A stretch of DNA of 62,314 nucleotides from NCBI GenBank assembly GCA_017463245.1, contig JAFTPN010000065.1:1-62314 (forward strand). Reading direction: 5' to 3'. The position numbers were made by a program, and so were the translations under genes. The notes below the pieces were generated by a model. The model saw nothing but the letters and a program-made list of their open reading frames with translations, searched no databases and was not told the origin of the DNA. Source of the stretch: Clostridia bacterium (GTDB lineage Bacteria > Bacillota > Clostridia > Christensenellales > Aristaeellaceae). How positions within the stretch are numbered: the stretch's first letter is position 1; every line of letters starts with the position of its first letter. This document shows positions 59,845-62,050 of the stretch, piece by piece.

Positions 59845-60399
59845 TTACTGTTCCACATCTTCCTCCACACAGAGCGTGCAAGCGATATCAAAACCAATGG
59901 TCGTTAACTCATTCTGGCTGATTGATGTTCCTTCATTGTTAAGCGCAAGCATAATTGCAACGCCCGTCCCCTGGGAACAATGTGCCAGAATCACCAAATT
60001 TTCGGCACTGAAAACCTTCCATTCTCGTTCCTGAAGATTAACTTGTTTTGATGTCTGCACAAAAGTTTGAGCCGTTTCTCCATCAAGACCCGCAAACAGC
60101 TGCAATGACCAACTCAAAACAGTGGCATTATCATCTTCAAGCTGATCACGGCTCAAAGAATAGGCATCGCCAACAAGCCCCATTTCCAGCGTGTTAACGG
60201 TCACAGAGTAGTCTTCACATAGATAATTGGTTATTGACAGGCCTTCCTCATCATTGGAATAGAACCCTGCACCCTCCAGCCCCGCCGGAAGCAGCAAGCT
60301 CATCTTGCCAACTTTGATCTCCTGTGTTTCCTCTGCCACCGCACAGGTCATGCTGCACACCAGGCACAGCGCCAAAACCAAAGCCGTCAGTTTACGCAT
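59845..60399 (-). CDS. Secreted hypothetical protein controlled from the XRE intergenic region
   Basis: A 184-residue exported protein: MRKLTALVLALCLVCSMTCA is a signal peptide, cleaved near AVAEE. The mature part is acidic with a few Cys and no motif I can name. It is richer in A and T than most genes here. AGGAGG lies 7-8 bases before the start. It faces the XRE regulator gene. The shared gap holds two matching inverted repeats, one of them inside this gene's promoter, so it is probably a direct target. Confidence 0.7.
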   Translation of the reverse strand: MRKLTALVLALCLVCSMTCAVAEETQEIKVGKMSLLLPAGLEGAGFYSNDEEGLSITNYLCEDYSVTVNTLEMGLVGDAYSLSRDQLEDDNATVLSWSLQLFAGLDGETAQTFVQTSKQVNLQEREWKVFSAENLVILAHCSQGTGVAIMLALNNEGTSISQNELTTIGFDIACTLCVEEDVEQ

Positions 60400-60437: not shown

Positions 60438-60466
60438 ATTATAGTAAAGATATTTACTAAAGTCAA
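60438..60466 (-). promoter_or_regulatory. Promoter of the secreted hypothetical gene
   Basis: TTGACT (60461-60466), 17 bp, TATAAT (60438-60443) on the minus strand. Confidence 0.75.
60442..60459. promoter_or_regulatory. Inverted repeat TAGTAAA-GATA-TTTACTA (operator 1)
   Basis: Perfect 7-base arms with a 4-base spacer, lying inside the -10/-35 spacer of the secreted protein promoter. A second copy lies 25 bp away, centre to centre. Confidence 0.6.
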
Positions 60467-60513: not shown

Positions 60514-60741
60514 ATGGAGGCGTATTGCAGGATCATCCGCGACCTGCGGGAAGATGCCGACCTGACGCAGGCGCAAGTCGCCGCAATTCTCGGCACATCG
60601 CAAACGATGTACGCCCGCTATGAGCGCGGTGCCAACGAGATGCCCATTCGCCACCTCCTCGCCTTGTGCCGATATTATCACGTCAGCTCTGATTACATCC
60701 TTGGCCTGACCAAAGAAAAGAACCCCACACTCAATTCCTAA
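60514..60741 (+). CDS. XRE-family transcriptional regulator
   Basis: A 75-residue protein that is little more than a helix-turn-helix: IIRDLREDADLTQAQVAAILGTSQTMYARYERGANEMPIRHLLALCRYYHVSSDYILG. Such short Cro/CI-type proteins act as dimeric repressors on inverted repeats. Here AGTAAA-N4-TTTACT copies lie within 75 bases upstream, so it very likely controls itself and the divergent secreted protein. AAAGGAGG precedes the ATG by about 8 bases. The stop codon TAA lies at the edge of a GAATTC-type repeat. Confidence 0.88.
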   Translation: MEAYCRIIRDLREDADLTQAQVAAILGTSQTMYARYERGANEMPIRHLLALCRYYHVSSDYILGLTKEKNPTLNS

Positions 60742-60772
60742 TTCCGCATTCCGCATTCCGAATTAGTTTGTT
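60729..60772 (+). repeat. GAATTCGGAATGCGG repeat, copy after the XRE gene
   Basis: AATTCCGCATTCCGCATTCC then GAATTAGTTTGTT. It begins at the XRE stop codon and has the AATTAGTTTG flank seen at other copies. Confidence 0.8.
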
Positions 60773-60794
60773 TTGTTCTCCTTGTGTACTTCCC

Positions 60795-60824
60795 TTGACA
60801 TTCGCCCTTTTCCGGGCGTATAAT
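60795..60824 (+). promoter_or_regulatory. Promoter of the DAHP synthase leader
   Basis: Perfect TTGACA, 18 bp, perfect TATAAT. Transcription would start near 60831, 35 bases before the leader peptide. Confidence 0.85.
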
Positions 60825-60865
60825 CCACCCATGGATACAGAAACGTATCCGCAGGAGGAAACACC

Positions 60866-60928
60866 ATGCGCCATTGCTTCTACTTTACGTTTACCATCCC
60901 GGGCGGCTTTGCCGTGCCGGGTGTTTGA
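60866..60928 (+). CDS. Aromatic leader peptide of the DAHP synthase attenuator
   Basis: A 20-codon open frame, MRHCFYFTFT then IPGGFAVPGV, behind a strong CAGGAGGA ribosome site. Four of its first nine residues are Phe or Tyr (codons 5, 6, 7 and 9). It lies 35 bases after the transcription start and about 110 bases before the DAHP synthase gene, and three mutually exclusive hairpins can form from it onward. Together these are the marks of a leader peptide whose translation senses charged Phe/Tyr tRNA. Confidence 0.85.
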   Translation: MRHCFYFTFTIPGGFAVPGV

Positions 60929-61014
60929 GCGTACCGTTGAAGCAGCGCCTTGTGCTGCCGCCTTGCTGCGGCGCATACCCGGGTGGCCTTTAACGGCCTC
61001 CCGGTTTTTATTTT
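60898..61014 (+). promoter_or_regulatory. Attenuator: pause hairpin, antiterminator and terminator
   Basis: Hairpin 1:2 pairs CCCGG (60898-60902) with CCGGG (60917-60921). Antiterminator 2:3 pairs CCGGGT (60917-60922) with ACCCGG (60977-60982). Terminator 3:4 is CCGGGTGGCC...GGCCTCCCGG (60979-61004) followed by TTTTTATTTT. Ribosome stalling on the Phe/Tyr codons hides strand 1 and favours 2:3; completing the peptide hides strand 2 and favours the terminator. Confidence 0.8.
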
Positions 61015-61036
61015 CTGATATAAGGAGAGATTTCGC

Positions 61037-62050
61037 ATGATCATCGTTCTCAAGCAGGGTACGCCCCAACAGGAAATCGACAAACTGACAAATATCATCA
61101 CCGGCAAGGGCATCAACGTGAACCCCATGTTCGGTTCCGATCTCACCATTCTGGGTCTGATCGGCGACACCAGCCAGGTCGACCCCGCCCAGATCGAGTC
61201 CTTCCGCTGCGTGGAGCGCATTATGAAGGTGGCCGAGCCCTTCAAGAAGGCCAACCGTATGTTCCACCCCGGCGAGAGCATCATCAAGGTGGGCAATACC
61301 GAGGTGGGCGGCAAGAAGCTGGCCATCATGGCTGGCCCCTGCTCTGTGGAGAGCAAGGAGCAGATCACCTATGTGGCGCAGGAGGTCAAGAAGGCCGGCG
61401 CCACCATCCTGCGCGGCGGCGCCTTCAAGCCCCGCACCTCCCCCTATGCCTTCCAGGGCTTGAAGTACGATGGTCTTGCCCTGCTGGAGGAAGCCCGCGC
61501 CGCCACCGGCCTGCCCATTGTCACCGAGATCATGAGCCCCTATGACATCGAGATCTTCGACGAGAAGGTGGACTGCATCCAGGTGGGCGCCCGCAACATG
61601 CAGAACTTCGACCTGCTGCGCCTGCTGGGTCAGACCAGGAAGCCCATCCTGCTCAAGCGCGGCCTGTCCTCCACCATTGAGGAGTGGCTCATGAGCGCCG
61701 AATACATCATGGCGGGCGGCAACCCCAACGTGATCCTGTGCGAGCGCGGCATCCGCACCTACGAGACCTACACCCGCAACACCCTGGACCTCTCCGCCGT
61801 GCTGGCCGTGAAGCGCCTGAGCCACCTGCCCGTCATCGTCGATCCCAGCCACGCCACCGGCAAGTTCTGGATGGTGGAGCCCCTTGCCCGCGCCGCCATC
61901 GCCGTGGGTGCCGACGGCGTGATGATCGAAGTCCACAACGATCCCGCCAACGCCCTGTGCGACGGCGCCCAGTCCATCAAGCCCGACCTTTTCGCCGAGG
62001 TCATGAAAGACATCCGCACCATCGCCGCCTGCGTAGGCCGCGAGGCATAA
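61037..62050 (+). CDS. aroF: 3-deoxy-7-phosphoheptulonate (DAHP) synthase
   Basis: A 337-residue DAHP synthase, the first committed step to aromatic amino acids. The N-terminal ferredoxin-like regulatory domain (residues 1-70, MIIVLKQGTPQQEIDKLTNII) is followed by the barrel with GPCSVES, LRGGAFKPRTSPYAFQG, QVGARNMQN, LLKRGLSSTIEEWL and VDPSHATGK. This is the Thermotoga/Bacillus-type (I-beta) enzyme, where the N-terminal domain gives feedback control by Phe/Tyr. AAGGAGAG lies 8 bases upstream. It is preceded by an attenuator with a Phe/Tyr-rich leader, so it is controlled at both RNA and enzyme level. Confidence 0.95.
   Translation: MIIVLKQGTPQQEIDKLTNIITGKGINVNPMFGSDLTILGLIGDTSQVDPAQIESFRCVERIMKVAEPFKKANRMFHPGESIIKVGNTEVGGKKLAIMAGPCSVESKEQITYVAQEVKKAGATILRGGAFKPRTSPYAFQGLKYDGLALLEEARAATGLPIVTEIMSPYDIEIFDEKVDCIQVGARNMQNFDLLRLLGQTRKPILLKRGLSSTIEEWLMSAEYIMAGGNPNVILCERGIRTYETYTRNTLDLSAVLAVKRLSHLPVIVDPSHATGKFWMVEPLARAAIAVGADGVMIEVHNDPANALCDGAQSIKPDLFAEVMKDIRTIAACVGREA

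Follow-up and report, generated by a model that had tools for sequence, protein, structure and literature searches.

A probable phenylalanine-responsive leader-peptide attenuator of aroF in Clostridia and a possible tyrosine counterpart on a second DAHP synthase isozyme

Introduction

Near the end of a contig from a Clostridia bacterium (JAFTPN010000065.1, assembly GCA_017463245.1), a short frame rich in Phe lies between a strong promoter and an aroF-type gene for DAHP synthase. How is this gene controlled, and which amino acid is read? We refer to the whole stretch of DNA that was analysed, 62,314 nucleotides in length, as the window. An original prediction, made from the letters of the window alone, proposed transcription attenuation through a leader peptide sensing Phe and Tyr, and regarded attenuators of such type as mostly proteobacterial. 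The latter view is dated. The available portions of published accounts describe a His leader before hisZ/hisS* in bacilli (PMC2965389), a Leu attenuator of ilv-leu in Staphylococcus aureus (PMC5794164), and Phe leaders in Corynebacterium (PMC4046766) and Acholeplasma (PMC8632094). As far as those portions describe them, the His and Leu leaders resemble the element studied here in being ribosome-mediated and in belonging to Bacillota, but they serve other amino acids and other genes.

Results

The predicted parts are all found before the gene: a full-consensus promoter, a strong ribosome site, a 20-codon frame, hairpins, and a T-tailed terminator (Table 1). The four strands named in the prediction are likewise present, as CCCGG (60898-60902), CCGGGT (60917-60922), ACCCGG (60977-60982), and CCTCCCGG (60997-61004). 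Aromatic residues of the leader frame are Phe at codons 5, 7, 9, and 15 and Tyr at codon 6, and the stop codon occupies 60926-60928. The terminator hairpin reads CCGGGTGGCC-TTTAAC-GGCCTCCCGG and is followed by TTTTTATTTT. An automated terminator scan of the leader region returned no matches, probably because the stem contains a mismatch. Overall, the 190-nt leader folded more stably than all 200 of its dinucleotide shuffles (z -5.4). The product of the structural gene scored above cut-off with each of the four models listed in Table 1 and is a DAHP synthase of the Bacillus subtilis type with a ferredoxin-like domain.

Table 1. Features of the aroF leader region and of related loci. Positions without a prefix are those of the window.
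Feature	Position	Strand	Basis
Sigma-70 promoter, TTGACA-18-TATAAT	60795..60824	+	12/12 consensus match
Small 5' hairpin near transcript start, GGATAC-GTATCC	60833..60850	+	folds
Shine-Dalgarno of leader frame, AGGAGG	60853..60858	+	sequence, position
Leader peptide frame, MRHCFYFTFTIPGGFAVPGV then stop, 20 codons, ATG at 60866	60866..60928	+	sequence
Strand 1, outer leader hairpin within aromatic codons, TGCTTC and TACGTTTA	60875..60893	+	minimum-energy fold, swap test
Leader-hairpin tip, CCCGG ... CCGGG (strands 1 and 2 of the original prediction)	60898..60921	+	folds
Strand 2, CCGTTGAAG, starting 5 nt past leader stop; partner is strand 1 side or terminator loop	60934..60942	+	swap test
Strand 3, CTTTAACGG, centre of terminator hairpin; 9 pairs with strand 2	60988..60996	+	swap test, complementarity
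Intrinsic terminator, stem 60979-61004, T-tail 61005-61014	60979..61014	+	-18.4 kcal/mol
Ribosome site of structural gene, AAGGAG	61022..61027	+	sequence
aroF-type DAHP synthase, isozyme A, with ferredoxin-like domain	61037..62050	+	NF006421, TIGR01361, PF00793, PF18152; tree
Second DAHP synthase (L002) with Tyr-rich leader MRKARYAKYYFVLYRVCRA at L002 1356-1415 and own terminator	G000:C53:4452-5450		sequence
T-boxes upstream of aroF, two Christensenellaceae loci without leader	L059:381-624, L061:269-514		

We searched upstream regions of relatives with a strict detector requiring an ATG, at least 5 of the 6 bases of AGGAGG, 12 to 45 codons, and at least 4 Phe or Tyr residues making up at least 20% of the frame. 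Of 91 DAHP synthase upstreams left after de-duplication, 41 had such a frame, as compared to 0 of 347 control upstreams (300 nt each). The 91 upstreams belong mostly to isozyme-A relatives with a few more distant genes, and the controls were those of other ORFs of at least 100 codons, mechanically chosen from the window and loci L032-L111. With 450 nt on the DAHP synthase side, there were 44 strict leaders among the 91, where dinucleotide shuffles expect 0.5. The sequences missed by the strict detector include genuine leaders failing its cut-offs, as well as a Christensenellaceae clade in which 12 of 13 loci had no leader even by a looser detector.

Two sets of loci were picked by eye from the listing of relatives' upstreams: 27 near loci having a leader of the window's kind, and 34 distant loci. 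Two loci read alongside the near set, L018 and L072, had no leader and were omitted from the 27. Another 12 of the 111 listed loci lie on the opposite strand and are outside these sets; 6 of them are copies of included loci, and the other 6 (L020, L022, L023, L027, L028, and L030) entered only the step with the tree and the looser detector. Terminators were set by hand in 6 of the 27 near loci, either because none was found automatically (L033, L034, and L055) or the hairpin was doubtful (L043, L039, and L070). All 34 distant loci, which had been selected for having a leader, have a terminator separating it from the gene. A later set drawn from 160 family genomes comprised 57 upstreams, made up of 17 of 21 new loci (4 copies omitted) and 40 further listed places. 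Here, a strict leader occurred in 36 of the 57 upstreams and was accompanied by a terminator in 35 of those 36; after removal of 8 copies, 28 of 49 had a strict leader and 27 had the terminator. The small frame, whose conservation in relatives had been put forward as a check on the prediction, thus recurs jointly with a terminator before DAHP synthase in related Clostridia.

Other parts of the leader are also retained. A promoter with at least 10 of 12 consensus positions precedes the leader frame in 24 of 27 near loci (mononucleotide-shuffle expectation 0.4). The 5' hairpin persists with an altered loop in L035, L032, L033, and L006, and in L039 both arms have changed (GGACGG-CCGTCC) with the pairing kept. 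Positioned between promoter and ribosome site, it is perhaps an RNA-stabilising element. Leader sequences vary between clades. Those of Clostridium and Anaerotruncus aroF (L066, L067, L073, L044, and 22 more loci) have a common core resembling WGFYFSAGY, within which codons are nearly fixed (GGC in 24 of 26, AGC in 20 of 26), pointing to constraint at the level of both RNA and peptide. Curated models contained nothing similar: there were no matches at E ≤ 1 for five leader peptides against NCBIfam or four against Pfam, and no Rfam family matched the window leader. Hence, such elements are probably unannotated.

Having found that the leader recurs, we considered which of its strands pair. Folding of the 27 near leaders gave a long leader hairpin closed by strand 1, within the aromatic codons, and strand 2, at or just past the stop codon. 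The CCCGG:CCGGG pairing of the original prediction is the tip of this hairpin, and its CCCGG is invariant in all 17 rows of an alignment of 17 loci (A1). Strand 2 is likewise a complement of strand 3, the central part of the terminator hairpin, where two T and CGG are invariant in 17 of 17 rows while the terminator arms are variable. We replaced column-based covariation on A1 with duplex swap tests because MAFFT fails to place one additional base that the window group has in strand 2. In a swap test, the duplex energy of each locus's own strand pair is compared to that of pairs exchanged between loci. Had strands 2 and 3 been selected for pairing, they would be expected to bind more strongly within a locus than after swapping.

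This was the case for strands 2 and 3 in the 27 near loci, where own duplexes averaged -13.68 kcal/mol and swapped ones -11.79 kcal/mol (z -4.31, p ≤ 5e-5), and it persisted after removing the four nearest sisters (z -3.59). Strands 1 and 2 behaved similarly (z -4.25), whereas the control pairing of strand 2 with the terminator base arm did not (z +0.98). The letters themselves have turned over, as in L034, where the counterparts are CGTAAAGAG with CTCTTTACG. In the 34 distant loci (Clostridium, Anaerotruncus, Gracilibacteraceae, and others), with letters quite unlike those of the near set (e.g., TAATGAGT with ACTCATTA), strands 2 and 3 gave z -5.36, and the control region leaned the same way (z -2.1). 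The idea of this pairing arose from the near set and was then tested on it, so the later set was examined in a frame fixed before inspection and spanning both earlier frames. Its 35 loci gave z -4.97 (control +0.61), and the 27 remaining after de-duplication gave z -3.92 (control +1.07). These statistics are uncorrected for shared ancestry, which the controls share while being null except in the distant set. With a fixed frame around the stop codon, duplexes were weak (-6.1 to -8.8) in L041, L060, and L088, 3 of the 27 near loci. Some other loci, L084 among them, formed their strongest duplex with a strand other than the intended one.

A different wiring of the same attenuator had been proposed, in which CCGGGT (60917-60922) pairs with ACCCGG (60977-60982) as the switch. 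Both strands exist in the window and are complementary, yet across 27 loci, duplexes between the end of the frame and the terminator base arm are no stronger within a locus than between loci (z +0.46). Moreover, the terminator base arms vary, whereas the loop letters are invariant across the 17 rows. None of the masked folds of the window cut at 60988, 60996, or 61004 chose this pair alone, and the one cut at 60996 chose CCGTTGAAG:CTTTAACGG. We therefore consider CCGGGT:ACCCGG improbable as the switch, and CCGTTGAAG (60934-60942) with CTTTAACGG (60988-60996) is the better-supported candidate antiterminator. The predicted leader hairpin (1:2) and terminator (3:4) are supported, and the swap tests favour 1:2 and the new 2:3 pair, but the antiterminator that had been proposed is not supported.

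We then asked how a ribosome at different codons would affect the candidate antiterminator. In these folds, only RNA ahead of the ribosome was folded, with its front edge 15 nt beyond the P site, and the antiterminator was scored as formed at 4 or more expected pairs. For transcripts ending shortly past the terminator loop, halting at the first Phe of F-x-F gave the antiterminator in 22 of 27 near loci, and halting at the second gave it in 17 of 27. It formed in 6 of 27 when no ribosome was present and in 7 of 27 when one sat at the stop codon. For the window transcript to 60996, a 9-pair antiterminator was the minimum-energy fold with halts at Phe5, Tyr6, Phe7, Phe9, and Phe15, and a 4-pair remnant was all that was left with the ribosome at the stop codon. 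Without a ribosome, strands 2 and 3 were also paired in the minimum at this length (-58.2). Just two bases later, 5.9 antiterminator pairs were expected with a halt at Phe7 and 0.2 with a halt at Phe9, implying that the time for switching is short. At full length and equilibrium, the terminator won nearly always, the antiterminator being kept in 3 of 27 loci at the first Phe and 1 of 27 at the second. The switch must therefore be kinetic, beyond what these equilibrium folds represent, with the choice made while RNA is being synthesised.

Attenuators of the pheA/trp type have several hallmarks. A Phe/Tyr-rich frame with a ribosome site and a terminator between leader and gene are both present here. 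An exclusive antiterminator freed by a halt was found for transcripts shortly past the loop, though not at full-length equilibrium. The stop codon is placed such that a terminating ribosome would mask 5 of the 9 bases of strand 2. As predicted, the aromatic codons are sited where a stalled ribosome would cover the leader hairpin in the masked folds. With the leader frames of relatives and the swap tests in its favour, transcription attenuation by a leader peptide holds up as the account of this locus, and the element is very probably a ribosome-mediated attenuator of aroF with Phe as its main signal.

The anatomy, conservation, and pairings rest on sequence, and from them we infer that the ribosome halts, that transcription terminates, and which amino acid is the signal. 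In the proposed mechanism, a ribosome would trail RNA polymerase along the leader frame. When Phe-tRNA is scarce, it would halt at Phe codons 5, 7, and 9, covering strand 1 and freeing strand 2. Strand 2 would then grip strand 3 as the terminator loop emerges, ahead of the second terminator arm, and aroF would be transcribed. When Phe-tRNA is plentiful, the ribosome would get to the stop codon, 5 nt ahead of strand 2, and mask its first five bases, such that the terminator would fold and transcription would end near 61010. With no ribosome, strand 2 would be sequestered in the leader hairpin and the terminator would fold as well. Phe would be the main signal, and Tyr possibly a weaker one via codon 6.

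Could the nascent peptide rather than the codons halt the ribosome? In a TnaC-like arrest, free amino acid would be sensed instead of a shortage of charged Phe-tRNA, and the strong conservation of motifs (F[AT]F in each of the 27 near leaders and the WGFYFSAGY-like core in Clostridium and Anaerotruncus) would fit. On the other hand, the near-fixed GGC (24 of 26) and AGC (20 of 26) codons occur in loci that are often AT-rich, which suggests RNA pairing as one cause, and leader sequences differ between clades. A biosynthetic gene is also generally expected to open on scarcity of its product, not on excess. For these reasons, we give peptide arrest only a slim chance relative to halting at codons short of charged Phe-tRNA.

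Control of aroF by a T-box, TRAP, or a metabolite riboswitch is less probable again, even though T-boxes occur elsewhere in the genome (16 matches at E ≤ 1e-3, 4 of them over cut-off) and the tyrosine operon of the Bacillus cereus group is under a T-box according to the available part of one report (PMC2494555). In the window, no Rfam family other than tRNA, elsewhere in the stretch, reached its gathering score, and around the leader there were just five noise-level Rfam matches far below cut-off. The T-box model RF00230 had no match at gathering score across the window and none at E ≤ 10 in 60700-61100. For TRAP, 60831-61036 contains only 4 KAG triplets at unsuited spacing. Conservation of a Phe/Tyr frame with its ribosome site also weighs against these forms of control. 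Least credible is the reading of the small frame as a chance ORF and of the hairpin as merely ending transcription from the upstream gene, since, although a short XRE-like frame (by eye) on the same strand ends at 60741, a strong promoter with counterparts in 24 of 27 loci separates it from the leader, and frame and terminator recur jointly before DAHP synthase in relatives.

Returning to the attenuator with strand 2:3 as its switch, we next considered which amino acid it reads. Every one of the 27 near leaders has F[AT]F, and their combined count is 113 Phe and 34 Tyr. These counts are from hand-listed leaders because the looser detector chose the wrong frame in L087 and a later start in L045. 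Therefore, it is more likely that Phe is sensed than that Phe and Tyr are sensed equally. The prediction that both are sensed is upheld for Phe but not for an equal role of Tyr, which instead dominates the leader of a second isozyme.

This second DAHP synthase, 59% identical to the first, is on another contig of the host genome. The end of its Tyr-rich leader, GCAGGGCG, pairs by eye with CGCCCTGC of its terminator. Across 17 genomes carrying both genes, the paralogue forms one clade (support 100/98), and a Tyr-rich leader precedes it in 15 of the 17, with Tyr outnumbering Phe in all 15. In each of the 15 genomes with both leaders, the first leader has a greater share of Phe than the second (Wilcoxon p 0.0003; the genomes are related). 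The simplest reading suggested by these leaders is that one isozyme responds to Phe and one to Tyr. We put at somewhat better than even the fuller reading, in which the two isozymes are run by separate attenuators, on Phe-tRNA for the window gene and Tyr-tRNA for its paralogue (G000:C53), within a Clostridia-wide aroF family that has replaced its pairing letters but kept the wiring of leader end to terminator loop.

The wider family also contains DAHP synthase leaders of mixed type, such as AYFYFRF, and a clean Phe/Tyr split may be limited to the host genus and its close kin. Further paralogues in the family (L190, L192, L198, L206, L213, L215, and others) carry mixed Phe/Tyr leaders (AYFYFRF, FYYFSY). 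Leader control of DAHP synthase looks common in the group.

Discussion

The mechanism proposed here is a classical one, and aroF genes preceded by Phe leaders are already known in Corynebacterium and Acholeplasma, going by the portions of the reports available. What may be new is the broad, apparently unannotated Clostridia-wide family, its wiring, and the possible isozyme split. Among the matches listed in a search of open literature (titles and starts of abstracts, with subscription journals mostly outside), none concerned aroF leader attenuators in Clostridia, and none dealt with leaders dividing DAHP synthase isozymes between Phe and Tyr. The hairpin scheme of the Escherichia coli pheA attenuator is comparable to that of the window. 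TyrR and TrpR regulate the DAHP synthase isozymes of that species. If true, the Phe/Tyr split would be an all-RNA counterpart of these repressor-controlled isozymes.

The closest known relative in kind is in Corynebacterium glutamicum, where aroF is preceded by the aroR leader peptide with Phe-Tyr-Phe (PMC4046766) and its transcription rises under Phe limitation (PMC11802643), according to the available parts of these sources. Like the window, it has Phe-Tyr-Phe in a leader peptide preceding aroF for DAHP synthase; unlike the window, its host is in Actinobacteria and the same parts mention no second Tyr leader on an isozyme. The likeness lies in the leader peptide. This leader is described in that text as responding to Phe and not Tyr (PMC11802643), which cautions against reading the signal from leader composition. 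In the uORFC-13-1 motif of Acholeplasma aroF, a predicted Phe uORF lies next to an intrinsic terminator and may have its own promoter and ribosome site (PMC8632094). It is similar by description, but differs in that its 24 representatives are from Acholeplasma and environmental sequences, with no isozyme pair described in the portion available. The E. coli pheA gene has a Phe leader (pheL) with attenuation, as outlined in part of one source (PMC11802643), and there attenuation controls pheA rather than DAHP synthase.

Our results suggest that many Clostridia, including uncultured lineages, Clostridium, and Anaerotruncus, use ribosome-read leader peptides to control how the shikimate pathway is entered. 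They also suggest that paralogous DAHP synthases can be distinguished by the amino acid read in their leaders, making isozyme division of labour testable from sequence. Exact strands are now available for testing.

Elsewhere in the host genome, reading by eye found no leader frame upstream of the aroA-aroC-pheA operon or tyrA, with pheA assigned by PF00800 and aroA and aroC named by eye. The N-terminal domain of anthranilate synthase I was not found in the host assembly, which is 91% complete, and the organism may thus be without Trp synthesis. A T-box search of 20 loci without a leader gave two that reached the gathering score, located roughly 1.9 to 2.0 kb before the start of the gene (Table 1), possibly representing different control of the same pathway.

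Several minor features of the window were also observed. On the minus strand, a strong promoter (TTGACT-17-TATAAT, 60438-60466) precedes a frame at 59845-60399 whose product, by eye, resembles a secreted protein. The XRE-like frame is followed by a short tandem repeat of ATTCCGC (60741-60765). Between the 3' side of aroF and the contig end (62050-62314) there are, by eye, GC-rich segments resembling inverted repeats, which may explain the break in the contig.
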